A stretch of DNA of 64,000 bases from assembly GCA_016219965.1 (NCBI GenBank), contig JACRJM010000003.1:186001-250000 (forward strand), given 5' to 3'. Made by a program: the position numbers and the translations under genes. Each line of letters begins with the position of its first letter. The stretch's first letter is position 1. The notes under the pieces are model-generated. The model worked only from the letters and a program-made list of their open reading frames with translations, was not told the origin of the DNA and searched no databases. This DNA comes from Candidatus Schekmanbacteria bacterium. Its GTDB lineage: Bacteria; Schekmanbacteria; GWA2-38-11; J061. Shown one piece after another: positions 1,312 through 22,832 of this stretch.

Positions 1312-3525
1312 TTGACTAAGCAGACAGAGACTACACCGAAGAAGAGAAGGACTATCATAGCGATAGTAAGCTTCGTCCTCCTCTTTGTTGTTCTCCTTAC
1401 AATGGAGATTTCAACGCAGAACATAGCGACGTCATCTCCCATCGCCAACTATGTAATCTTTTATTCCTTTTACAACATTAATTTTATCCTTCTTCTTGTG
1501 CTCTTCTATCTTGTCATAAGAAACCTCGTAAAACTGTATTTTGAGCGGCAGCGGCGTGTACCCGGAGCCAAGTTCAGGACAAAGCTGATAGTTTCCTTTT
1601 TCCTTCTTACCATAATCCCATCGGTGCTGCTCTTCCTGTTTGCCCGGGTCCTGATAGCCCAGACAATAGAATACTGGTTCAGTGTCCCCATAGAGCAGTC
1701 ATTGAAAGGGGCAATAGATGTTTCAGACCAGTACAACAAAACCCGCCTTGAGAAGTCGCTGCATTTTTCTTCGCTTATAGGAAAAACCGTAGTACGCAGG
1801 AACCTTCTTGCTCCGCGCAACAACACCCATCTGAAGAATTATCTTAATGCAAAACTCAGGGAGTATGACCTTGACTCTATTTTTATCTACAATGATAAAG
1901 GAAATGAGATAATCCATATAGACACCGGAAAGAAAGGGGAACCCAAACCTGACAAGAAACTCATAGCGCAGTCATTGCTAGGGAAGAAATATACCAAGGT
2001 TGAATCTGACGTTGAAGATGATTCGATTTTTGGGACTTTCACAATGAAGGAGGGGGGGAATAAAACAATCGGCGTGGTGGCTGTAGGCTACTACCTGCCC
2101 AAAAGCACATCACAGGATATAAGGTCTGTTGCCCTTGCTTTCAAAGATTACAGGCAGAAAGAGATATTTAAAAAGCCTATCATGGACAACTACATTGCCA
2201 TGTTCGCCATCGTGACTGTGCTCGTCATATTTGCAGCAATGTGGTTCGGGTTCCAGCTTGCAAAGGAGATAACAGTACCCATACAGCAGCTTGCCGAAGG
2301 AACGCATGCGGTCGCAGAAGGGAACCTTGATTTCCATATAGATATCAAAGTCAAGGACAGAAGCCAGGATGAGATAGGAATACTTGTCGATTCCTTCAAT
2401 AAGATGACGCATGATTTAAAGATCCACAAGCTTGAGCTTGAAGACAAGAACATGAGCCTTGAGAATACCAACAGGGAACTTGACAGGAGGAGAAGCTACA
2501 TTGAAACCGTTCTTGAAACAGTAAGCACCGGAGTTATATCACTTGACGCATGGGGAAAGATAACAACCATCAATGATGCGGCAGAAGACATGCTCCAGAT
2601 AAGAGGGGAGGATTATGCCGGCAAACATTACCAGCAGGCTTTCGGGAAATCCCAGCTTGAGCCGCTGAAAAAAGTCATAAACGAGCTTGAGGAAAAAAGG
2701 GACCGAAGCATTCAGCAGGAGATTAACCTTAACATCAATGGCGAAGTTTTCACCTTAATGACAAATATCAGGGAACTTTACGACGGGAATGGCACGCTGA
2801 TGGGAATGGTCATGGTGCTCGATAACGTTACTGAACTAGTCCGTGCACAAAGAGTGGCTGCATGGAGGGAGGTCGCAAGGATGATCGCCCATGAGATAAA
2901 GAACCCACTCACCCCGATAAAACTTTCTGCCCAGAGGCTCAAAAAACGTTATTTTCAGAAGATCAGCGGAGACGATGCGGTCTTTGAAGAATGTGTTGAT
3001 ACTATCATACAGGAGGTGGATGATTTAAAGGGCATGATTAATGAATTTTCAAATTTTGCACGCATGCCGGTTTTCGACCCTGTAGATACCAATATCGAGA
3101 ATGTCATAAATGAAACTATTTCTCTTTACAAAACAAGCATGAAAGATGTTAAAATAGACCTTGTTTCGGGCGGGGAGATGCCTTCGCTGAAACTTGACCC
3201 TGATCAGATAAAACGTGTATTCATCAACCTTGTCGATAATGCGATTGAGGCAATGGGGGGCAAGGGAGAGATAAAAGTAGCGCTTGAATATTTAAAAGAT
3301 TTGCAGACTGTTAAAATAGAGTTTTCCGACAATGGAGCCGGCATTGCTCCAAACATCAAGGAAAAGATGTTTATGCCCTATTTTTCGACCAAGAAAAAGG
3401 GAACGGGGCTGGGGCTGGCCATAGTGAACACCATAATCTCGGAACACCGGGGTTACATAAGGGTAAAAGACAACAATCCGCGGGGGACGACTTTTGTAAT
3501 TGAGCTCCCCGTGAGAGTAGCTTAA
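1312..3525 (+). CDS. ntrY: NtrY-like membrane sensor histidine kinase
   Basis: A 737-residue kinase of the NtrY type, expected to autophosphorylate and pass phosphate to the response regulator encoded next. Membrane segments lie at about 13-31, 56-72, 91-113 and 292-313, with a periplasmic region between the third and fourth. They are followed by HAMP (about 315-370), PAS (about 390-505), a HisKA box with phospho-acceptor H527 in AHEIKNPLTP, and an HATPase domain with N box NLVDNAIEA, G1 DNGAGI and G2 GTGLGLAI. Start is TTG at 1312, preceded by GAGG. The partner is an NtrX-like receiver fused to an LPS enzyme, so the signal sensed may concern the envelope rather than nitrogen; that is inference. 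Confidence 0.92.
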   Translation: MTKQTETTPKKRRTIIAIVSFVLLFVVLLTMEISTQNIATSSPIANYVIFYSFYNINFILLLVLFYLVIRNLVKLYFERQRRVPGAKFRTKLIVSFFLLTIIPSVLLFLFARVLIAQTIEYWFSVPIEQSLKGAIDVSDQYNKTRLEKSLHFSSLIGKTVVRRNLLAPRNNTHLKNYLNAKLREYDLDSIFIYNDKGNEIIHIDTGKKGEPKPDKKLIAQSLLGKKYTKVESDVEDDSIFGTFTMKEGGNKTIGVVAVGYYLPKSTSQDIRSVALAFKDYRQKEIFKKPIMDNYIAMFAIVTVLVIFAAMWFGFQLAKEITVPIQQLAEGTHAVAEGNLDFHIDIKVKDRSQDEIGILVDSFNKMTHDLKIHKLELEDKNMSLENTNRELDRRRSYIETVLETVSTGVISLDAWGKITTINDAAEDMLQIRGEDYAGKHYQQAFGKSQLEPLKKVINELEEKRDRSIQQEINLNINGEVFTLMTNIRELYDGNGTLMGMVMVLDNVTELVRAQRVAAWREVARMIAHEIKNPLTPIKLSAQRLKKRYFQKISGDDAVFEECVDTIIQEVDDLKGMINEFSNFARMPVFDPVDTNIENVINETISLYKTSMKDVKIDLVSGGEMPSLKLDPDQIKRVFINLVDNAIEAMGGKGEIKVALEYLKDLQTVKIEFSDNGAGIAPNIKEKMFMPYFSTKKKGTGLGLAIVNTIISEHRGYIRVKDNNPRGTTFVIELPVRVA

Positions 3526-3539
3526 TAGCGGAGAAAAAA

Positions 3540-5738
3540 GTGAGAAAAGGACACATATTAGTTGTTGATGATGAAAACAACATAGGCACAACCCTTGAAG
3601 GGATTCTTACTGACGAAGGGTATGAAGTGTCGAAGGCTGAAAACGGGCTTCAGGCACTTGACATGATAAAGCGGGTCCCTCCGGATGTGGTATTGCTTGA
3701 TATCTGGATGCCGGGAATGGACGGGATAGAAGTCTTAAAAAGCATAAAAGAACATGAGAGCGATACTGAGGTGGTTATAATGTCAGGGCATGGCTCTATT
3801 GATACCGCCGTAAGGGCCATCAAGCTGGGTGCATTTGATTTCATCGAGAAACCTCTTTCGCTTGACTCCCTGCTTTCTACAATCAACCATGCCCTTGAAA
3901 GACAGAGGACAGCAAAAGAAAGCCAGGAACTTAAAAGAGAACTTCTTCAGCGGTATGAGCTTATAGGTGAGAATCCGAAAATACAGGAGGCACGAAAGCT
4001 TATCAGCGCAGCCGCAATCTCAAATGCAGGGGTATTGATAGAAGGGGAACATGGCACAGGCAAAGAACTTGTGGCAAGGACCATTCATATCAACAGCATC
4101 AGACGCAACAGGCCTTTTGTAAAAGTAAATTGTGCTGCTCTTCCTGATGATATAATAGGGAATGAAATGTTCGGCTGCGACTCAAACAACGGAGGAGGAA
4201 TAAGCAAAAGGGGAAAATTTGAGCTTGCAGAAGACGGCACTCTCTTCCTCGACGGCATAGAAAAGCTGGACATCAATGTTCAGGAGACAATCCTGAAAGT
4301 TCTTCAGACAGGAAAATTCATGCGGATTAACGGGAAGAGGCTTCTCCCTGTCAACTTCAGGATAATAGCTGCAAGCGAAAAGGACATTCAGAAACTGATT
4401 GAAGAGAACAAATTTTCCAGTGAGCTCTATTCATTCATATCTACCTTTGTCATATATCTGCCCCCCCTGCGCGACAGAAAGGATGACATCCCGTCACTTG
4501 TAAATTACTTTAGCCGCGAGCTTACACAGGATTACGGCAGAGGTGTTAAGGAAATCGACGACAATGCCATGGCAGCCCTTGTGACTTTTGACTGGCCCGG
4601 CAATGTGAAAGAAATCAAGAATATTATCGAGCGTCTGGCAATATCTGTTCCCACAGGGAGGATATCTGCCGACGATATCCCTGTTTCGATCCGCGGAATA
4701 ACGCCAAAGACTTCCCAGTACCAGTACAACGGCTACTCATTGAAAGACGCGAGACAGAAATGGGAAAAGGAATACCTCATTCACTGTCTGACCATGACAG
4801 GATGGGACCTCAAGAAGACCGCAAAGGAAATGGGAATAACCTGCAAGACCCTTGAGAAGCACATAAAATCCTTCGGTCTTAAAAAACCTAAGAAAGAGAC
4901 AAGCACTGCTGCAAGAATCCAGCGCACACTAAAGACAAGCGTAGTCCTCTGCGGTCAGGGGCTCCATTCCGGACTTAAGACAGGTCTGATACTTGTCCCC
5001 CAGAATCCAAACGCCGGTATCGTATTTGCTAATGTTTCTACCGGAGAAACCATGACAGCAGTTCTTGATAACGTGGAATCAACAGACTATGCCACATCGT
5101 TAAAGTGCGGCAAGTCCCATGTAAAAACAATAGAACATATCATGGCTGTGCTTAATATTTACGGGATAAACAACCTTCTCATAAAGATAACCGACGAGGT
5201 TCCCATAATGGATGGTTCATCCCTTGATTTCTGTGAACTTATTGAGGATGGGGGCATTCTTGAGCAGGATGAGTTTATAGAGGAAATAGTCATAGACAAG
5301 GTCATAGTTCACGGCAAGGAAAGTCCCAAGGAAAAGTATATTAAAATAGAGCCCTGCGATAAGTTTTCCGTGAAGTATATAATGGATTATCCTCCGCCCA
5401 TCGGCAAACAGGAAATGGATTATGTTTTCAAGGGGGCCGAGGATTTTAAAAAGAACATTGCCCCTGCCAGAACCTTCGGTTTCCTCAAGGACGTAGAATA
5501 CCTTGAGAAGAAGGGGCTGATCAGCGGAGGAAAGCTTCACAATGTCATCCTCCTTGATAACGAGAAGGTAATAAACACTGAGCTGAGGTTCAAGAATGAG
5601 TTTGCAAGGCACAAGGTGCTCGACATTATCGGCGATTTCTATCTCCTCGGCAGACCGCTAAGGGGCAAAATTACCGCGCACCTTACAGGCCATTCAGAAA
5701 ACATAGCTCTTCTTAATAAGATACGTTCTATCTACTGA
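3540..5738 (+). CDS. lpxC: NtrX-like response regulator fused to LpxC deacetylase
   Basis: One uninterrupted 732-residue frame joins a sigma-54-type response regulator to LpxC, the zinc enzyme that removes acetate from UDP-3-O-acyl-GlcNAc and commits lipid A synthesis. Domains: receiver 1-120 (DD10-11, phospho-acceptor D54), AAA+ 135-380, Fis-type HTH about 410-455, then LpxC about 460-732. LpxC residues are kept: E532-H533 (IEHIMA), H691 and D695 (HKVLD), H718 (TGHSEN). The AAA+ part is degenerate: Walker A GEHGTGKE is present, but the GAFTGA loop is replaced by a Gly/Asn-rich stretch, Walker B reads LFLDGI (acid to Gly) and the sensor II Arg is Lys. It should therefore not activate sigma-54. 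GTG start with GGAG upstream. Confidence 0.93.
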   Translation: MRKGHILVVDDENNIGTTLEGILTDEGYEVSKAENGLQALDMIKRVPPDVVLLDIWMPGMDGIEVLKSIKEHESDTEVVIMSGHGSIDTAVRAIKLGAFDFIEKPLSLDSLLSTINHALERQRTAKESQELKRELLQRYELIGENPKIQEARKLISAAAISNAGVLIEGEHGTGKELVARTIHINSIRRNRPFVKVNCAALPDDIIGNEMFGCDSNNGGGISKRGKFELAEDGTLFLDGIEKLDINVQETILKVLQTGKFMRINGKRLLPVNFRIIAASEKDIQKLIEENKFSSELYSFISTFVIYLPPLRDRKDDIPSLVNYFSRELTQDYGRGVKEIDDNAMAALVTFDWPGNVKEIKNIIERLAISVPTGRISADDIPVSIRGITPKTSQYQYNGYSLKDARQKWEKEYLIHCLTMTGWDLKKTAKEMGITCKTLEKHIKSFGLKKPKKETSTAARIQRTLKTSVVLCGQGLHSGLKTGLILVPQNPNAGIVFANVSTGETMTAVLDNVESTDYATSLKCGKSHVKTIEHIMAVLNIYGINNLLIKITDEVPIMDGSSLDFCELIEDGGILEQDEFIEEIVIDKVIVHGKESPKEKYIKIEPCDKFSVKYIMDYPPPIGKQEMDYVFKGAEDFKKNIAPARTFGFLKDVEYLEKKGLISGGKLHNVILLDNEKVINTELRFKNEFARHKVLDIIGDFYLLGRPLRGKITAHLTGHSENIALLNKIRSIY

Positions 5739-5771: not shown

Positions 5772-6809
5772 ATGGATAACAAAAAAATAGATTACAGATC
5801 GTCAGGAGTGAACATAGATGCCGGCAATGAGTTCGTGCGGCGAATAAAGCCGCTTACGAAATCGACTTTTATAGAAGGCGTTGTTTCAGATATCGGGGGG
5901 TTCGGCGGATTTTTCAGGCTCCCCCAGGGATTGAAGAATCCCCTCCTTGTGGCGACTACGGACGGAGTCGGCACAAAGCTCAAGGTTGCCTTTGATGCAG
6001 GAATACATACCACCATCGGAATAGACCTTGTCGCCATGTGCGCAAATGACCTTATAGCCACAGGTGCTACACCTCTTTTCTTCCTTGATTACTTTGCAAC
6101 AGGGGCGCTCACAATAGAGCAGGGAGTCGATGTAGTAAAAGGGATTACCGAGGGGTGCCGCGAAGCCGAGATGGCTCTCATAGGCGGCGAGACCGCTGAA
6201 ATGCCGGGTTTTTATAAAAATGGCGAATATGATATTGCAGGATTTGCGGTAGGTGTCGTTGAAGAAGGTAAAGCCCTCCCATCCAAGGACATAAGGACAG
6301 ATGACTGTCTTATTGGAATCGCATCCAACGGACTTCACAGCAACGGCTATTCCCTTGCAAGGAAGTTGTTTTTTGATGAGCTTTTAATGTCTGTAGAAGA
6401 CGATTTCCCCGGAGGTCAGGGGCAGTCGGTGGGCAATGTGCTTTTAAGACCTACCCGCATATACGTCAAGCTTATGAAATCCCTTTTAAAATCTTACCAT
6501 ATAAAGGCTGTCGCACATATAACAGGCGGAGGATTCATTGACAACATACCGCGCGTGCTTCCGGATATGGCTACTGCCATAATCGAAGAGGGAAGCTGGG
6601 AGATGCCCGATGTTTTCCGCTTCATAGTCGAGACAGGAAAAATAGAGAGGAATGAACTCTACAGGACATTCAATATGGGAATAGGACTTGTCCTTGTGGT
6701 AAGCCGGGAATCCTGTGATGATGTTCTTTCCCTTGTCAAGGCTTGCGGCGACAAGGGGTGGAAAATCGGAAGAATAGAACGAGGGGAAAAAGAAGTAGTG
6801 ATAAGATGA
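5772..6809 (+). CDS. purM: Phosphoribosylformylglycinamidine cyclo-ligase (AIR synthase)
   Basis: PurM closes the imidazole ring of purines by ATP-dependent conversion of FGAM to AIR in the cytoplasm. The 345-residue length matches the family. Signatures include TTDGVGTKLK in the ATP/metal loop, GGETAEMPGFY, SNGLHSNGYSLAR and ITGGGFIDNIPRVLP. The ATG has GGAG nine bases upstream. The purM-purN order, with only four bases between them, is the common bacterial arrangement. Their position just after the lpxC fusion suggests one long transcript from dprA to the foldase gene. Confidence 0.97.
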   Translation: MDNKKIDYRSSGVNIDAGNEFVRRIKPLTKSTFIEGVVSDIGGFGGFFRLPQGLKNPLLVATTDGVGTKLKVAFDAGIHTTIGIDLVAMCANDLIATGATPLFFLDYFATGALTIEQGVDVVKGITEGCREAEMALIGGETAEMPGFYKNGEYDIAGFAVGVVEEGKALPSKDIRTDDCLIGIASNGLHSNGYSLARKLFFDELLMSVEDDFPGGQGQSVGNVLLRPTRIYVKLMKSLLKSYHIKAVAHITGGGFIDNIPRVLPDMATAIIEEGSWEMPDVFRFIVETGKIERNELYRTFNMGIGLVLVVSRESCDDVLSLVKACGDKGWKIGRIERGEKEVVIR

Positions 6810-6813
6810 CATT

Positions 6814-7446
6814 ATGAAAAACATCGGCATACTTGTTTCAGGACGCGGGAGCAACCTCCAGGCATTGATTGACTCAATCTCAAAGAGAGAGATAAATGGC
6901 ACCATTGCCATAGTTGTCAGCAATATTGAAGATGCGCAGGCCTTGAACCGTGCAGCCTCCGCCGGTATCAGGACAGCCGTAGTTGACCACAGGAAGTTTA
7001 AATCGCGCGAAGATTTTGAGAAGGAACTTATAAGGGTTCTCGATGATTCAAAAGTCGACCTTGTATGCCTTGCAGGTTTCATGCGTGTCCTTACATCCTT
7101 TTTTATAAGGAACTACAGGAACAGAATCATAAATATCCATCCTGCGCTTCTCCCGTCATTCCCAGGTATCCATGCACAGAAGCAGGCTCTGGATTATGGG
7201 GTGAAGGTCAGCGGATGTACTGTCCATTTTGTTGACGAAGGGACCGACACTGGCCCTATCATACTTCAGAAGACTGTACCTGTTTACGATGCGGACGATG
7301 AAGAGAGCCTTTCAGAGAGGATACTTGCCGAAGAGCATAAACTCTACGTTGAAGCAGTCAAACTTTTCTGCAGTGACAGAATCATTGTGAACGGCCGGAA
7401 AGTTTTCATAAAACAGGATTATGAAGAGGATAAAACCACGAGATAA
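6814..7446 (+). CDS. purN: Phosphoribosylglycinamide formyltransferase
   Basis: PurN transfers a formyl group from 10-formyltetrahydrofolate to GAR, the third step of purine synthesis. The 210-residue product has the phosphate loop SGRGSNLQAL at its N-terminus, the catalytic stretch NIHPALLPSFPG and the VDEGTDTGPI loop with its essential Asp. It starts four bases after purM and its last 26 bases overlap the following foldase gene, so the three genes are tightly packed and probably translated together. Confidence 0.96.
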   Translation: MKNIGILVSGRGSNLQALIDSISKREINGTIAIVVSNIEDAQALNRAASAGIRTAVVDHRKFKSREDFEKELIRVLDDSKVDLVCLAGFMRVLTSFFIRNYRNRIINIHPALLPSFPGIHAQKQALDYGVKVSGCTVHFVDEGTDTGPIILQKTVPVYDADDEESLSERILAEEHKLYVEAVKLFCSDRIIVNGRKVFIKQDYEEDKTTR

Positions 7447-11100: not shown

Positions 11101-11361
11101 ATGGCAAAAAATATATTAAATATAGTTCTGTCTGGACTTTGTGATAAGAATATTAGATTTGAAGAGTTAAAGAAGCTGATTTTGAGTTTTAGTTTTGACT
11201 GTCGTGTTAGAGGAGACCATCATATATTCTCAAAGAGCGGCATTGCTGAAATTATTAATCTTCAGCCACTCCGTGATGGTAAAGCAAAACCATATCAGGT
11301 TAAACAGGTGAGAAATATTATCCTGAGATATAAACTCCATAAGGAGGATAAAAATGTATAA
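11101..11361 (+). CDS. hicA: HicA-family mRNA interferase toxin
   Basis: An 86-residue protein with the dsRBD-like HicA fold. It has a helix (FEELKKLILSFSF), then RGDHHIFSK, which carries the His expected of the catalytic site, and QPLRDGKAKPYQVKQVRNII, the usual C-terminal block. HicA cleaves mRNA when not held by HicB. The gene overlaps hicB by eight bases, the standard toxin-then-antitoxin order. The 190 bases upstream are AT-rich and probably hold its promoter. No clear ribosome-binding site is seen before the ATG. Confidence 0.9.
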   Translation: MAKNILNIVLSGLCDKNIRFEELKKLILSFSFDCRVRGDHHIFSKSGIAEIINLQPLRDGKAKPYQVKQVRNIILRYKLHKEDKNV

Positions 11362-11617: not shown

Positions 11618-12727
11618 ATGAAGATACTTGACCGATATGTTTTAAAGGAATTTTTGAGGTACCTTTTTCTGACACTTTGCATCTTTGTCGCCATCTATCT
11701 TATTGCTGACCTATTTGAAAGGGTAGATGAGATCATAGAGCACAAGGTATCGCTGATGGTTGCTGTAAAATACTTTATCTACAAATCCCCGCTTATGTTC
11801 TTTAATGTCTTCCCCTTTGCCATGCTCTTTGCTTCGCTTCTTACGGTAAGACAGTTTGTCGGGAATAATGAGCTTATTGCAGTTTGCGCAAGCTCAGTTT
11901 CTCCCTACAGGTTCTTTTTTCCTGTTGTTATGTGCGGAGTGTTTTTTTCGGTCACTATATTCCTTGCCAACGAGGTAGTTCTTCCCTACACAAACGGGGT
12001 CGTCGAGAACCTTGAGTACGAGATAAAAGGTAAAGTCAACCCCATATACCGTCCCTCAAGCAACAAGGTTCAGGAGATATGGTACCGCGGGGCAGGAAAT
12101 ACCTTCTACAATATGGACATGCTCATAAAATCTTCAGAAGAATTGAGGAAGGTCACAATCTATAAGATAGATAATGATTTTGCCCTGAAAGAAAGGGTTG
12201 ATGCCGAGAAGGCAAAGTATCGAGATGGCAAGTGGACATTAATAAACGGCATGGAACTTAAATTTAAAAAAGATAACTGGGACATTAAGGAAACTTTTAC
12301 CAAACGACCCGGGGACATCAAAGAGAAATTTGAAGATTTCCTCAAGGTTGAGAAAAAATCCGAATCAATGTCATTCTTTGAGCTTCAAAGTTATCTGGCA
12401 CGCATAAAGAACACAGGGATCGCTCCCCAGCAGTATGTAAAGTATCTTGTGGATCTTCACAGCAAGATTTCCGTTCCTGCGTCAGCAGTGGTAATGACTA
12501 TACTTGGAATACCCTTTGCACTAAGGAGCAGAAGGTTCAAGGGTGCAATGTCAGGAATAGCTTTAAGCATTGCCATCGGATTTTCTTACTGGATAATCTT
12601 CTATATGCTCATATCTATGGGGCATGGCGGGAAGATCCCTGCCATAATCGCAGCTTATGGCGCTGTAGCAATATTTGGCGCCGCGGGATTTTATCTGTTC
12701 TCAGATCTTAACAGGAAGATCATCTGA
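11618..12727 (+). CDS. lptG: LPS export permease LptF/LptG family
   Basis: A 369-residue inner-membrane permease of the YjgP/YjgQ family, which with LptB extracts LPS from the inner membrane and passes it to LptC/A. It starts MKILDRYVLKEF as the family does, with membrane segments at about 12-32, 55-80 and 98-120, a periplasmic jellyroll domain (about 125-270), and three more segments in the last 90 residues. The PASAVVMTILGIPFALRSRR block before the fifth segment is diagnostic. Whether it is LptF or LptG is less certain; only one copy is in the window. Confidence 0.9.
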   Translation: MKILDRYVLKEFLRYLFLTLCIFVAIYLIADLFERVDEIIEHKVSLMVAVKYFIYKSPLMFFNVFPFAMLFASLLTVRQFVGNNELIAVCASSVSPYRFFFPVVMCGVFFSVTIFLANEVVLPYTNGVVENLEYEIKGKVNPIYRPSSNKVQEIWYRGAGNTFYNMDMLIKSSEELRKVTIYKIDNDFALKERVDAEKAKYRDGKWTLINGMELKFKKDNWDIKETFTKRPGDIKEKFEDFLKVEKKSESMSFFELQSYLARIKNTGIAPQQYVKYLVDLHSKISVPASAVVMTILGIPFALRSRRFKGAMSGIALSIAIGFSYWIIFYMLISMGHGGKIPAIIAAYGAVAIFGAAGFYLFSDLNRKII

Positions 12728-17655: not shown

Positions 17656-18867
17656 ATGACAACTACCTATTCTTATTCAAGACTCGGAACATACGAGACA
17701 TGTCCTCTCCAATATAAGTTTGCCTACATTGACAGGATAAAAAGCGACACCGAGGGGATAGAAGCTTTCATGGGTTCATGCTTCCATAAAGTAATGGAGC
17801 ATCTTTACAAAGAGCTTCCCTTCAAAATTCTTCCCCTTGAAGACCTTCTTGTCAGCTATGACGAACTCTGGGAGAAAGGATGGCACCCGGATATTGTGGT
17901 GATAAGAAAAGACAGAACCACTGAAGACTACCGCGCCTGCGGTAGAGAGAGCATAGAAAAATATTACAGGCGCTACCATCCCTTCAACTCATCGAAAACG
18001 CTCTTCGTGGAAAAGGAAGTGAAGCTTTCACTCGATAGCGAAGGAAAATATCTCATAAAAGGCTATGTTGATAGGATAGATGAGCAAGCAGACGGCTCAT
18101 ACGAAATCCATGACTATAAAACAGGGGCGCTTCCTGACCGGAAAAGAATAGATGGAGACAAACAGCTCGCCATTTACCAGATAGGGCTTTCAGGGTTATT
18201 TGATGATGTAAAGGATGTGAAACTCATCTGGCACTATGTGGCTTATGACAAGGAATTTATCTCGACAAGAACTTTGGAACAGCTTGAAGATGTAAAGGCT
18301 CAAACAATTGCGCTCATAGATGAGATAGAAGCTCAAACAGAATTTCTCCCGAGCGAAAGCTTCCTTTGTGAATGGTGCGGCTATCAGGAACTCTGTCCCA
18401 GGCGCAAACATCTTTTTAAAACAGAGAGCCTTCCAGTGAATGAATACCTTAACGATGACGGAGTGAAGCTTGTAAACAGATTCATGGAGCTTAAGGGAAA
18501 GGTCAGTGAACATAAGGCAGAGATTGGCAAATTGGAAGAAGAGCTTGAGAAGGTAAAAGAGGCGGCGGTTGTCTTCGGGAAAAAAGAAGGTGCTGAAACA
18601 ATTGCTGGAAGCGGCTTCAAGCTAAAGATAAGCAAAAAGACCGATGTTTCCTTCCCTGAAAAGAAAGACCCTCAACGCCTTGAGATTGAAAAAATCATCA
18701 GGGATTCAGGCAAATGGAATGAAGTAGAGGGGCTTGATATTCCCGCTCTTAAAAAAATCTACCTCGAAAAGAAATGGGACGCTTCGCTGATTGAGAAGCT
18801 AACGCCCTTTGCAGAACTAAAGACCACAACGCAGGTCACATCTTCAAAGTTAAAGGAGAAGGAATAG
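17656..18867 (+). CDS. RecB/Cas4-like PD-(D/E)XK nuclease with Fe-S cysteines
   Basis: A 403-residue PDDEXK_1 nuclease. The core (about 1-260) shows SRLGTYETCP at the start, MGSCFHKVMEHLY with the conserved His, GYVDRID and HDYKTG carrying the metal-binding Asp and catalytic Lys. Four cysteines, C16 and the C238-x2-C241-x5-C247 group, match the 4Fe-4S cluster of AddB and Cas4. The last 130 residues hold a coiled coil (about 275-305) and a Lys-rich tail of unknown use. A strong AAGGAGG precedes the ATG. It is followed 11 bases later by the ArdC-like gene. No cas genes or repeats are nearby, so it is not a CRISPR Cas4. Confidence 0.87.
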   Translation: MTTTYSYSRLGTYETCPLQYKFAYIDRIKSDTEGIEAFMGSCFHKVMEHLYKELPFKILPLEDLLVSYDELWEKGWHPDIVVIRKDRTTEDYRACGRESIEKYYRRYHPFNSSKTLFVEKEVKLSLDSEGKYLIKGYVDRIDEQADGSYEIHDYKTGALPDRKRIDGDKQLAIYQIGLSGLFDDVKDVKLIWHYVAYDKEFISTRTLEQLEDVKAQTIALIDEIEAQTEFLPSESFLCEWCGYQELCPRRKHLFKTESLPVNEYLNDDGVKLVNRFMELKGKVSEHKAEIGKLEEELEKVKEAAVVFGKKEGAETIAGSGFKLKISKKTDVSFPEKKDPQRLEIEKIIRDSGKWNEVEGLDIPALKKIYLEKKWDASLIEKLTPFAELKTTTQVTSSKLKEKE

Positions 18868-18878
18868 GAGGTTTATAT

Positions 18879-19829
18879 ATGAATAAAAACCCATCAAAAA
18901 CTGATACCTTTGACAAAATCACTCAAAGGATAATTGAACTCCTTGAAAGGGGATATATCCCGTGGAAACGACCGTGGAATATAAAGAACGGTCCTCCCGC
19001 TAATCTTTTTACCAGAAAACCTTACAAAGGAGTCAACGTTTTTCTCCTCTCCTGTACACGTTTTTCAAGCCCCTACTTTTTAACGGAAAATCAGGCGCAG
19101 AGGATGGGAGGGAACGTAAAGAAAGGAGCCGAGGAGTTTTTAATATTTTTCTGGAAATTTCCCGGGACAGCTGAAAAAAAGAAAAAAGATGGCAAGGGAA
19201 GCAGGGTTTATCTGAGCGGGCCTCTTCTTTTTGGATATTCCGTTTACAACGTGGAAGAGTGCGAAGGTATCCCTGTCCCCGGAATTGAAACTAAGGAATT
19301 CGATCCAATCAAAGAGGCTGAAGATATCGTTTCCAAATTTCCGGACCTGCCAGAAATAGAGACTGGCGGCGATCGTGCCTCCTACTCGTCAATCGATGAT
19401 CTGATCAGGATGCCGGCAAAGGAAAGTTTCTTCTCCCCTGAAGAATATTACGGCACGCTTTTTCATGAAATAGTCCACTCCACAGGACATATCCGCAGGC
19501 TTAACCGTCCCGGATTTAAAGAGCATCCTGCTTTTGTATCGGAAGAATACAGCAAGGAAGAGCTTATAGCCGAGCTTGGAAGCGCCTTTCTTTGCGGCAA
19601 CGCAGGCATAGAGCAGAAGACTATCAGGAATAGCGCCGCTTATATCAAAGGGTGGATAAATTCCCTCAATAACGACAAGAGACTGCTATTTTTTGCGTCA
19701 GCATCTGCCCAGCGCGCAGTCAACTATATAACCGGCGAGGCGCAAAAGCCAAAGACGGTCAACAAGAATATTAAAACTAAAGCAAGGTTAGCACAAAATT
19801 TAACAGAGAAAAGATATGCTTACAGATGA
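18879..19829 (+). CDS. ArdC-like antirestriction/zincin protein
   Basis: A 316-residue protein with the ArdC N-terminal ssDNA-binding domain (about 10-130, including RGYIPWKRPWN and GVNVFLLS) and a C-terminal zinc metallopeptidase-like domain with HEIVH at 196-200 followed by STGH and a downstream EELIAELG glutamate. ArdC proteins protect incoming plasmid DNA from restriction. An AGGAGG lies before the ATG. It lies about 1 kb upstream of a restriction-modification locus, which fits either a plasmid-derived remnant or a module that moves with it. Its end overlaps the next gene by 14 bases. Confidence 0.88.
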   Translation: MNKNPSKTDTFDKITQRIIELLERGYIPWKRPWNIKNGPPANLFTRKPYKGVNVFLLSCTRFSSPYFLTENQAQRMGGNVKKGAEEFLIFFWKFPGTAEKKKKDGKGSRVYLSGPLLFGYSVYNVEECEGIPVPGIETKEFDPIKEAEDIVSKFPDLPEIETGGDRASYSSIDDLIRMPAKESFFSPEEYYGTLFHEIVHSTGHIRRLNRPGFKEHPAFVSEEYSKEELIAELGSAFLCGNAGIEQKTIRNSAAYIKGWINSLNNDKRLLFFASASAQRAVNYITGEAQKPKTVNKNIKTKARLAQNLTEKRYAYR

Positions 19830-20280
19830 AACAGATTCCAATAATTTTAACGATGCATTAACAGTAAATTATATAGACAAGTATCCGGCGCTCGGAATGC
19901 CCGGCTGGATTTACCTTTACTGGCAGCCCAGGGGAAAGGGAGACCCCATCACCAGCGCGCACTATCAGAATATGACTGCTGAAAGCCACTTTGAAAAAGC
20001 AGGTGAGCTGAAGAAGCTTGCAAGAATGGAAAAGAAGAATGCCGACATCTTCAAAAGGCTCAAGGATAAAAAACGACGGGAGAGAAGTCTTAAAAAATCC
20101 GCCGCCTACGAGGAAGCGGCAAGGCACCACGAGCTCAAGGCGAATGGGACAATCGAAGAAGAATTTTATGTAGATGAAGAGGAAGCCCTAATAGATAACC
20201 TCAAGGGGATCCTGAAGATTTCAGAGGAAAGCACGGACCTCATTTCAGATCTGATTGAAGAGATAAAGAAGATGGGCTGA
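19816..20280 (+). CDS. Hypothetical protein, charged and helical, in the ArdC operon
   Basis: A 154-residue protein that I do not recognise. The first 60 residues include WIYLYWQPRGKGDP and may form a small folded region; residues 60-115 are strongly charged (Lys, Arg, Glu) and probably helical; the C-terminus is acidic (EEEFYVDEEEALI) and ends in another helix. Its start lies inside the ArdC-like gene, and it is followed by a ribbon-helix-helix gene seven bases later, so it belongs to the same transcript. It may be a plasmid-type accessory protein. Confidence 0.7.
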   Translation: MLTDETDSNNFNDALTVNYIDKYPALGMPGWIYLYWQPRGKGDPITSAHYQNMTAESHFEKAGELKKLARMEKKNADIFKRLKDKKRRERSLKKSAAYEEAARHHELKANGTIEEEFYVDEEEALIDNLKGILKISEESTDLISDLIEEIKKMG

Positions 20281-20287
20281 AAATTCT

Positions 20288-20491
20288 ATGAATAAAAAAA
20301 TAACTGTAAGCCTTACATCTAAACAGGTTAAAGAGCTGACTAAGATTATGGAAAAAGACTTGGATGAATGCGGCAGGAAAATCTCCATGGAGTATCTAAT
20401 CAGGAAAGCGGTAGATGATTACATTATCATGCAGAAAAAACTAAACAGAATGGCGAAGCTTTCAGCAGCAGATAGAGCAGCGGAAATGTGA
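20288..20491 (+). CDS. Small ribbon-helix-helix-like protein
   Basis: A 67-residue protein opening with a basic beta strand (KKITVSLT) followed by two helices (KQVKELTKIMEKD and MEYLIRKAVDDYI), the pattern of CopG/Arc-type DNA-binding dimers. Such proteins usually repress the operon they sit in, here the nuclease-ArdC module. The identification rests on the pattern, not on a diagnostic motif. Confidence 0.65.
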   Translation: MNKKITVSLTSKQVKELTKIMEKDLDECGRKISMEYLIRKAVDDYIIMQKKLNRMAKLSAADRAAEM

Positions 20492-20541
20492 AAGGAGCAT
20501 ATTTCGCTGACATTCCCCCTGATGACCAATAGAAAAAGGCT

Positions 20542-20724
20542 ATGGCATTTGATGATGATGAGCAGGCTGAAAGGCTTGAAGAAACATTCACTAATCTTGG
20601 CAACGTGCAAAGATGCACAGCAAAAGGGCTGATGCTTTCAGACGGGCGGCGGTGCATCATCGCCTTGCAGCACGCAATAAGTCAGGAAAGGCCGCGCAAA
20701 AAGATTAAGCACGAATATCATTAG
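20542..20724 (+). CDS. Small hypothetical protein
   Basis: A 60-residue frame with ATG preceded by AAAAAGG and an in-frame stop just upstream at 20530. The product is acidic at its start (MAFDDDEQAERLEE) and basic at its end (ERPRKKIKHEYH). No family is recognised. It follows the ribbon-helix-helix gene by 50 bases in the same direction, which is the main support. Confidence 0.4.
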   Translation: MAFDDDEQAERLEETFTNLGNVQRCTAKGLMLSDGRRCIIALQHAISQERPRKKIKHEYH

Positions 20725-20960
20725 GAACACAAATAAAAAAAGAGAGTTTATGCAGGGATACATTGATAGCATAGAAAGTTTGATGGTTACATTCGAAAAG
20801 GTTAAAAAGAGAATAGCAATCTGAAATCCATTTCTGATAATATAATACTTAGTTTGAATTAATTAACTTTTCTCAGAAATCATAGAAAACAAACAGTAGT
20901 AGAATAATATATTATGCGTCATAGACGTAAGGGATGTTCAACGATTAAAAGGAGTACCGA
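20725..20960. other. AT-rich spacer before the restriction-modification locus
   Basis: Between the nuclease/ArdC module and the modification gene lie 236 AT-rich bases. They include a 24-codon frame at 20750-20824 (MQGYIDSIESL...), too short to call, and presumably the promoter of the restriction locus; GGAG precedes the ATG at 20961. Base composition rises sharply after this spacer. Confidence 0.5.
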
Positions 20961-22832
20961 ATGACATATCTCGAACAATCCATAGAGAAAGGCTACGCCA
21001 CTATCGCCGGTGAAGGGACAAAACAACGAATCACCTATGTTGCTGTTAATCATTCCGAGCGTTTCTCTGACCCAGAGGAGCAAGTCCGCGCCGAATACTG
21101 GGCTGAGCTTATCTTCCGATACGGCTACGAACCCGCCCGCATCGGCGTTGAAATCACTGTCCCAGATCGCACACCTAAGGACGCTGCAGATCTTGTCGTC
21201 TTCATCGATGATGCCCGCACTCGCCCCTTTGCGGTTATCGAGTGCAAGCGTGATGGTGTCACCGACGCTGAATTCGCACAAGCAGTTGAACAGGCCTGTG
21301 GTAACGGAACATGGGCTAAATTCCGCGCCCCATATGTCGGCGTTGTCGCTGGCCAGACCCGCCGATTCCTGGACTTTTCAGAAAAATATGGCGTGCTCGA
21401 ACGCGAGGCCAACATCATCGCCGACCTGCCCCGCCAGTATGGCAAACCCGAGGAATGGCGCTTCCGCAAAGGCACGAAGGACGATATTCAATCCGTTAAC
21501 AAGGAAACTCTGATTGCCACAATCAAGAAATGCCATCAAACCCTATGGGGCGGTGGACGCCTTTCGCCTCCAATGGCATTCGGCGAACTCTGTAAGCTCC
21601 TCTTCGTAAAAATTCAAGACGAAAAGACCCCGCGCAAGAACGGGCAACCCTACGAATTTCAGATCAAGACGCACGAGCCAAGTCGTAAACTTGCAGAACG
21701 TATCAAGCTAATCTATGAGCAAGCCAAGGTGAAAGACCCGCAAGTATTCACCGACACCATCCGCATCGACGATGCCACACTTCGCACCCTAGTATCACAT
21801 ATGGAAGGTGTCAGCTTCAGTAAGACTGACCTCGACACCAAGGGTGTCGCATTTGAGCAGTTCATGGACGGTTTTTTTAAGGGCGACTTCGGTCAGTATT
21901 TCACGCCTCGTGAAATAATCGCCTTTGCCGTTGAGGTAATGCTCGACGAGCGCGACCATCGAGGGCGCAAACTCCCACAAAACGAAAAATTTATTCTTGA
22001 TCCTGCCTGTGGCTCCGGCGGCTTCCTGCTCCATGCACTGGACCATCTTCGCAGAGAGGCCGATGAATACTATTCAGATCAGAAGGGTGATCCACAGCGC
22101 GGAATTGACGAAGGAAAAGATCACTACAAACACTGGCACGACTTTGCTGAAAAACGGCTCTACGGAATTGAGATCAACGACGAAATCGCTAGAGTCGCGA
22201 AGATGAACATGATCTTGCACGATGACGGACACAGCAACGTCATCGGTGTTGATGCCCTGGATCGGTTCGGCGGCATCCTCCAGCGCACAGGAAACAAAGG
22301 ATTCACAGAAGGTGTCTTTGACCTGATCCTGACCAATCCCCCCTTCGGCGCACAAATCAACCTCACCGAGCGCCCCTACTTGCCAGATTTTGATCTCGGC
22401 AACCAGGAAGACTCCAAAGGGAAGAGGAGGCCTCGCAAGAATCAAAAAACAGAAATCCTCTTCATTGAGCGCGTGTGGCAATTCCTTAAACCAGGCATAG
22501 GCCGCGCAGCCATCGTACTACCTGACGGCATTTTGACCAACTCTTCGTTGCAATACGTTCGTGACTTTCTCATTGAACGCTTCCAAGTTCTCGCGGTTGT
22601 TAGCCTTCCGCAGACAGCCTTCGCCCACTTTGGAGCTGGTGTCAAAGCCAGTCTTGTGTTCCTGCGCCGCCGCGCTGAAGGAGAGAAACCTAGGGATGAT
22701 GAAGCCATCTTCATGGCTGCGCCCGAAAAAATCGGCTACGATGCTACTGGACGAAAGTGCGAGAACCAACTGCCAGAGGTGGCGCAACAATACCAAGCGT
22801 TCTGCAAGAATCCAGAACCTTTTTTCGTCTAA
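20961..22832 (+). CDS. Restriction-modification protein: N-terminal PD-(D/E)XK nuclease plus N6-adenine methylase
   Basis: A 623-residue chain that combines a nuclease-like domain (about 20-130) with a HsdM-type DNA adenine methylase (about 180-600). The nuclease signature is D77 followed by E94-C-K96 (FAVIECKR), the HSDR_N pattern. Methylase motif I is DPACGSGGF from D347 and motif IV is NPPF at 459-462. No translocase (HsdR motor) is encoded nearby, so this is more like a type IIG/IIB enzyme such as BcgI than a type I system. GC and codon use are clearly higher than in neighbouring genes, a sign of transfer. The gene ends on a T TTT TTC heptamer just before its stop. Confidence 0.88.
   Translation: MTYLEQSIEKGYATIAGEGTKQRITYVAVNHSERFSDPEEQVRAEYWAELIFRYGYEPARIGVEITVPDRTPKDAADLVVFIDDARTRPFAVIECKRDGVTDAEFAQAVEQACGNGTWAKFRAPYVGVVAGQTRRFLDFSEKYGVLEREANIIADLPRQYGKPEEWRFRKGTKDDIQSVNKETLIATIKKCHQTLWGGGRLSPPMAFGELCKLLFVKIQDEKTPRKNGQPYEFQIKTHEPSRKLAERIKLIYEQAKVKDPQVFTDTIRIDDATLRTLVSHMEGVSFSKTDLDTKGVAFEQFMDGFFKGDFGQYFTPREIIAFAVEVMLDERDHRGRKLPQNEKFILDPACGSGGFLLHALDHLRREADEYYSDQKGDPQRGIDEGKDHYKHWHDFAEKRLYGIEINDEIARVAKMNMILHDDGHSNVIGVDALDRFGGILQRTGNKGFTEGVFDLILTNPPFGAQINLTERPYLPDFDLGNQEDSKGKRRPRKNQKTEILFIERVWQFLKPGIGRAAIVLPDGILTNSSLQYVRDFLIERFQVLAVVSLPQTAFAHFGAGVKASLVFLRRRAEGEKPRDDEAIFMAAPEKIGYDATGRKCENQLPEVAQQYQAFCKNPEPFFV

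Follow-up and report, generated by a model that had tools for sequence, protein, structure and literature searches.

The only LpxC of a Candidatus Schekmanbacteria bacterium is encoded as the C-terminal part of a protein that begins with an NtrX-like receiver domain, and such fused proteins supply the single lpxC across several phyla in more than 100 genomes. Together the comparative results lead us to conclude that an NtrY-type membrane kinase probably controls LpxC post-translationally by way of this attached receiver. The gene was found in a 64,000-nucleotide stretch of contig JACRJM010000003.1, the whole of which is referred to here as the window. The original prediction, made from the letters of the window, had proposed that LpxC is under direct kinase control in this organism, and comparison with other genomes favors that proposal as an inference from sequence.

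The fusion gene occupies positions 3540..5738 on the forward strand, starts with GTG and encodes 732 amino acids with no internal stop. A receiver-AAA-Fis regulator had been predicted to run in frame into a complete LpxC, and the Pfam domains do lie in this order in one open frame. The NtrX-like receiver (REC; Pfam Response_reg) covers residues 6-115 (3555..3884, +) and contains every element expected of a phosphorylatable domain, namely the phospho-acceptor D54 (3699-3701, +), the acid pocket D10 and D11, the Ser/Thr position S82 and the lysine K104. It is followed by an NtrX-type AAA+ region with its lid (residues 141-392; 3960..4715, +), in which Pfam places Sigma54_activat at 141-305 and the AAA lid at 311-392, and by a weak Fis-type HTH remnant (residues 409-443; 4764..4868, +), for which the HTH_8 match is marginal at 23.8 bits against a cut-off of 22. 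The LpxC deacetylase takes up residues 461-732 (4920..5735, +; Pfam LpxC 461-728).

The identity of the LpxC part is clear from its match to PF03331 (275 bits, cut-off 27, E 6.7e-82) and from a TIGR00325 lpxC score of 240 bits, above the cut-off of 187.25. All of the zinc and catalytic residues named in the prediction, E532 and H533 (5133-5138, +), H691 (5610-5612, +), D695 (5622-5624, +) and H718 (5691-5693, +), are kept; they align with the corresponding residues of solved LpxC structures and are invariant in 49 fused relatives. With zinc ligands and catalytic residues complete, the domain is predicted to be a deacetylase acting on UDP-3-O-acyl-GlcNAc. In the source genome (G000; 3.58 Mb, 18 contigs, 98% complete) no other PF03331 match was found, so a search for a second lpxC leaves the fusion as the sole PF03331 protein. 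LpxA and LpxB were each found above cut-off, with one match apiece, in 16 of 16 fused genomes tested, and where these enzymes are present and no other lpxC exists the fusion must supply LpxC. We also considered whether an internal translation start might yield free LpxC. No start codon occurs in the 20 codons before the LpxC part of the window protein, and 26 of 46 fused proteins likewise lack one within that distance; since the start codon is not conserved among the 46, this possibility was rejected.

The fused domain shares with stand-alone LpxC (PF03331/TIGR00325; P. aeruginosa, A. aeolicus) the same full domain and all zinc and catalytic residues, and similarly scores above the equivalog cut-off, is single copy and accompanies the LpxA/LpxB pathway. 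It differs in that it always carries an N-terminal receiver, lacks a long C-terminal tail and forms a separate clade on a long stem. LpxC is also found fused in the bifunctional LpxC-FabZ proteins (PRK13188; L140-L143), but there the partner is a lipid-synthesis enzyme at the C terminus and no receiver is present. The window LpxC stops shortly past the Pfam domain, with neither a long tail nor a C-terminal FabZ. Long LpxC frames in G147, G177, G250 and G271 were examined as further receiver fusions and rejected, as they proved to be LpxC-FabZ proteins.

An unusual architecture such as this one could in itself reflect an assembly error, a frameshift artefact or a neutral fusion with no function. 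Recurrence in more than 100 independent genomes, in one clade, in single copy and with all key residues kept refutes this explanation, to which we assign almost no probability. The nearest named relative, a Schekmanbacteria genome (L032), carries a protein 62% identical over the whole length. A family search that took account of open-frame lengths found fused LpxC in all sampled genomes of the order to which the window belongs (G001-G003) as well as in G008, G034 and G050. Of 77 genomes from the phylum of G008, 65 carry lpxC, with one match each, and apart from pieces at contig edges the frames measure 460-797 aa; in the phylum of G011, lpxC was found in 40 of 45 genomes, nearly all as a REC-LpxC protein of about 440-470 aa. 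A profile census of 386 genomes, sampled across the breadth of the domain Bacteria, added G141/G281/G410, G165, G216/G352, G151/G419, G161, G307 and G173/G310/G438. The phyla of G000, G008, G034, G050 and G011 are mutually separate, and the lineages added by the census fall outside all five. Thus the proposed search of protein databases for the same domain order found it in several phyla, with all sampled fused LpxC domains in one clade, and the distribution rejects a single-genome oddity. The prediction would have been undone by a frameshift or stop between the two parts, or by a fusion confined to one assembly alongside a second lpxC; the frame is open, the fusion is recurrent and no second lpxC was found.

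In a tree of 122 LpxC domains, the 48 fused domains (48/48) form one clade with support 100/100, apart from the 74 unfused domains. From the sequences we conclude that fused LpxC proteins are of common origin. The fused receivers resemble NtrX receivers, with which they have the alpha-1 signature SLxGILxDEGY in common. A tree of the receiver by itself was poorly resolved because its 116 columns are too few, and its use for dating the fusion was dropped. A divergent REC-LpxC protein from the G011 phylum (L184:5404-6639, G460), with an LpxC 36% identical to that of the window and a receiver that is partly recognisable, may represent an early branch.

The fused proteins are conserved at their two ends and decayed in the middle. 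Mean pairwise identity within the fused set is 65% for the receiver and 65% for LpxC, with 33% for the AAA region and 37% for the HTH, whereas the values for 77 unfused NtrX proteins are 63%, 60% and 55% for the receiver, AAA and HTH, respectively. Since the receivers of the two sets have diverged equally, it is only the AAA/HTH middle of the fused protein that has decayed. The 49 fused proteins aligned all share D54, W56 and the five LpxC active-site residues, and D10, D11, S82 and K104 vary in at most three of them. The HTH is poorly conserved or absent in relatives. In L124/L125, proteins of about 450 aa with an NtrY gene directly upstream, and in L127, both the AAA region and the HTH have been deleted while the receiver and LpxC remain; L126 has lost the AAA region and keeps only an HTH remnant between its receiver and LpxC. 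Starred branches in the LpxC tree place L127 within a group of relatives that retain the AAA region. Whole lineages (G011, G161, G307 and G173/G310/G438) lack the AAA and HTH parts and still have the receiver and LpxC. That receiver and LpxC are kept as the AAA and HTH decay or vanish indicates that the function under selection is that of the receiver together with LpxC, and that DNA binding and sigma-54 work are dispensable.

These results bear on whether the protein might still regulate transcription, LpxC being either a passenger or a trigger enzyme that also binds DNA. The window protein does retain Walker A, the AAA lid and a weak HTH. However, its GAFTGA loop is missing (residues ~212-220), and its Walker B reads GTLFLDGI, in which the DE pair has become DG. 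The prediction that both GAFTGA and the Walker B acid had been lost was therefore right as to GAFTGA and wrong as to the Walker B aspartate, which is kept as D238; it is the adjacent catalytic glutamate that is gone, replaced by G239. None of the aligned fused proteins with an AAA region has GAFTGA and almost none has the Walker B glutamate, whereas among unfused NtrX proteins GAFTGA or GSFTGA is found in 65 of 77 and the Walker B DE in 77 of 77. The window protein reaches 394.6 bits with the NCBIfam NtrX equivalog, below its cut-off of 600. With the HTH missing in many relatives, AAA and HTH together missing in whole lineages and the receiver and LpxC intact, a continuing role in transcription is very improbable. 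Similarly, the view that the protein remains a sigma-54 activator, which had already been judged unlikely, is rejected on the missing GAFTGA and Walker B glutamate and on the deletion of AAA and HTH in relatives.

The kinase that would act on the receiver is encoded next door. An NtrY-like membrane sensor kinase gene (1312..3525, +) ends 14 nt upstream of the fusion start and, as originally described, precedes it; its product has an NtrY_N-like region, HAMP, PAS, HisKA and HATPase_c domains in Pfam and matches a profile built from fusion-adjacent kinases, which found one full-length match in the source genome. Downstream lie the conserved neighbors purM (5772..6809, +) and purN (6814..7446, +). 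The gene immediately before the fusion encodes NtrY in Schekmanbacteria as well as in L033, L034, L115, L124-L126, L134, L135, L166-L168 and L170-L172. Of the 25 fused genomes tested by profile search, 21 have exactly one full-length NtrY, including seven from the G008 phylum in which the single NtrY is unlinked to the fusion; at the threshold used, none was found in the other four (G173, G310, G011 and G469). No response regulator was found beside the unlinked NtrY genes in the copies examined, which points to the fused receiver as their natural partner. Several of these unlinked genes (L199:1866-12916; L200:2422-5549; L202:5809-8684) adjoin a DUF4390 gene and likewise have no neighboring response regulator. 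In G116 the unlinked ntrY is followed, no more than about 10 kb away, by a BamA-OmpH-FabZ-LpxA cluster; the ntrY of G307 (L198) lies near lpxA.

The adjacency of kinase and fusion genes in many lineages would also fit a receiver that serves as a docking module, keeping LpxC at the kinase or within a complex built around NtrY close to where LPS is made, with phosphorylation of little relevance to catalysis. We regard this as improbable, since the invariance of the phospho-acceptor aspartate and the near-invariance of the acid pocket, the Ser/Thr and the lysine are more than docking requires. One lineage departs from this pattern. The REC-LpxC proteins L176, L177 and L178 (G173, G310 and G438) have altered switch residues, with K104 changed to arginine in L176 (G173) and D11 to serine in L178 (G438). 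This variation, together with the absence of a detected NtrY in G173 and G310, suggests that kinase control may have been relaxed or lost in the G173/G310/G438 lineage.

The connection between NtrYX and lpxC is seen in unfused bacteria as well. We fetched 77 unfused loci (L035-L111) by similarity to the NtrX part, from Desulfobacterota, Rokubacteria, Methylomirabilota and others. In 40 of the 77, ntrY-ntrX is immediately preceded by a free lpxC in the same orientation (for example L043:2588-7383 and L066:2576-7359), and some of the other loci are cut by contig ends. No discussion of this conserved lpxC-ntrY-ntrX group was found in the literature searched. In Nitrospira an unfused ntrX is followed by purM-purN; the fusion has the same two genes after it, indicating the same locus. 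The fusion thus resembles the NtrY-NtrX system in its type of kinase, its NtrX-like receiver with residual AAA-HTH, the upstream position of ntrY and the ntrY-ntrX-purM-purN locus of Nitrospira, and differs in that its output is an enzyme, its AAA part lacks GAFTGA and the Walker B glutamate and its equivalog score is 395 against 600 bits.

Repression of lpxC by NtrYX has been shown previously in R. sphaeroides and C. crescentus; in the R. sphaeroides mutant the lpxC transcript rose 8.8-fold with more LPS, and no NtrX site was found at lpxC (PMC7240162, PMC12444477). The same signaling system and the same lipid A step are involved in Rhodobacter sphaeroides and Caulobacter as here. In those alphaproteobacteria, however, control is transcriptional, and reported to be indirect in R. 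sphaeroides (PMC7240162, PMC12444477), whereas the fusion joins receiver and enzyme in one covalent chain. Desulfovibrio vulgaris DVU2934 is likewise a response regulator devoted to lpxC (DVU2917), but it is a separate DNA-binding regulator that acts at the promoter (PMC3333781). By analogy with the alphaproteobacterial repression, active NtrY may lower LpxC output.

Based on these results we propose that the LpxC of the cell carries a permanently attached receiver inherited from NtrX, and that a transmembrane NtrY-type kinase, here encoded just upstream, would sense envelope or redox state and phosphorylate D54. The phosphorylated receiver would most likely act by altering LpxC activity. The AAA+ and HTH parts would be remnants from the NtrX ancestor, deprived of sigma-54 function and with no role beyond that of a linker or a module for oligomerisation. 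Kinase control is favored because receiver and LpxC are conserved together while AAA and HTH decay and the phospho-acceptor residues are kept, because most of the fused genomes tested have a single NtrY, and because lpxC, ntrY and ntrX are linked in unfused relatives. AlphaFold models of the window protein (mean pLDDT 84.6, pTM 0.50) and of the REC-LpxC protein L125 (mean pLDDT 80.6, pTM 0.63) have well-folded domains, but neither contains a confident arrangement of receiver and LpxC, and the linker is of very low confidence, so no allosteric path is visible in them.

The receiver might instead govern the amount of LpxC, with phosphorylation exposing the protein to a protease or hiding it, in a manner analogous to FtsH/LapB of E. 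coli. Proteolysis controls the LpxC of E. coli, and Lon can degrade that of alphaproteobacteria (PMC12444477). The fused LpxC ends 14-33 residues past the last active-site histidine; with so short an end, a long degron of the E. coli type is apparently missing, and control may have shifted to another site. However, no degron or adaptor evidence was found and the REC-LpxC linker is not conserved. We hold this alternative to be unlikely; with control of location by the receiver, it is the main rival of direct control of activity.

Other features of the window include an LptF/LptG lipopolysaccharide export permease at 11618-12727, which follows the fusion at a distance of 6 kb in the same orientation, and an 86-aa ORF at 11101-11361 that is HicA-like by eye and has no Pfam match at 1e-6. 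A PD-(D/E)XK nuclease, an ArdC-like/zincin protein and an N6 DNA methylase with an HsdR_N-like part lie at 17656-22832, a region suggestive of a small restriction or mobile island.

Receiver domains on enzymes are known from response regulators of the CheB and PleD type. The known outputs of such proteins are mostly signaling enzymes, whereas here the receiver is attached to the enzyme of a committed step in lipid A biosynthesis. Outer-membrane lipid synthesis is controlled at LpxC, which is also a drug target and whose known controls comprise proteolysis, protein partners and transcription. The premise that LpxC is normally controlled by proteolysis accordingly holds for one control but not for a sole control, as transcriptional control by NtrYX has been published (PMC12444477). 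No LpxC-receiver fusion was found in the openly licensed papers searched, and a review of lipid A regulation from 2025 uses none of the words receiver, fused and fusion; domain databases probably display the architecture. The spread of the fusion is far wider than the sequence alone could show.

Taken together, it is reasonably likely that a receiver-LpxC class of single origin has replaced free LpxC across several phyla and that in these bacteria a membrane kinase sets LPS synthesis by phosphorylation. The compact natural REC-LpxC proteins (~430-470 aa) are well suited to in vitro study of receiver control. An attached receiver would fit the ties between NtrYX and lpxC in unfused bacteria, and fixation of the fusion across whole phyla would make such control a general rule for those organisms. 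If this is true, a committed biosynthetic enzyme would bear a direct phosphorylation switch, through which a membrane sensor could raise or lower lipopolysaccharide production directly at the enzyme.
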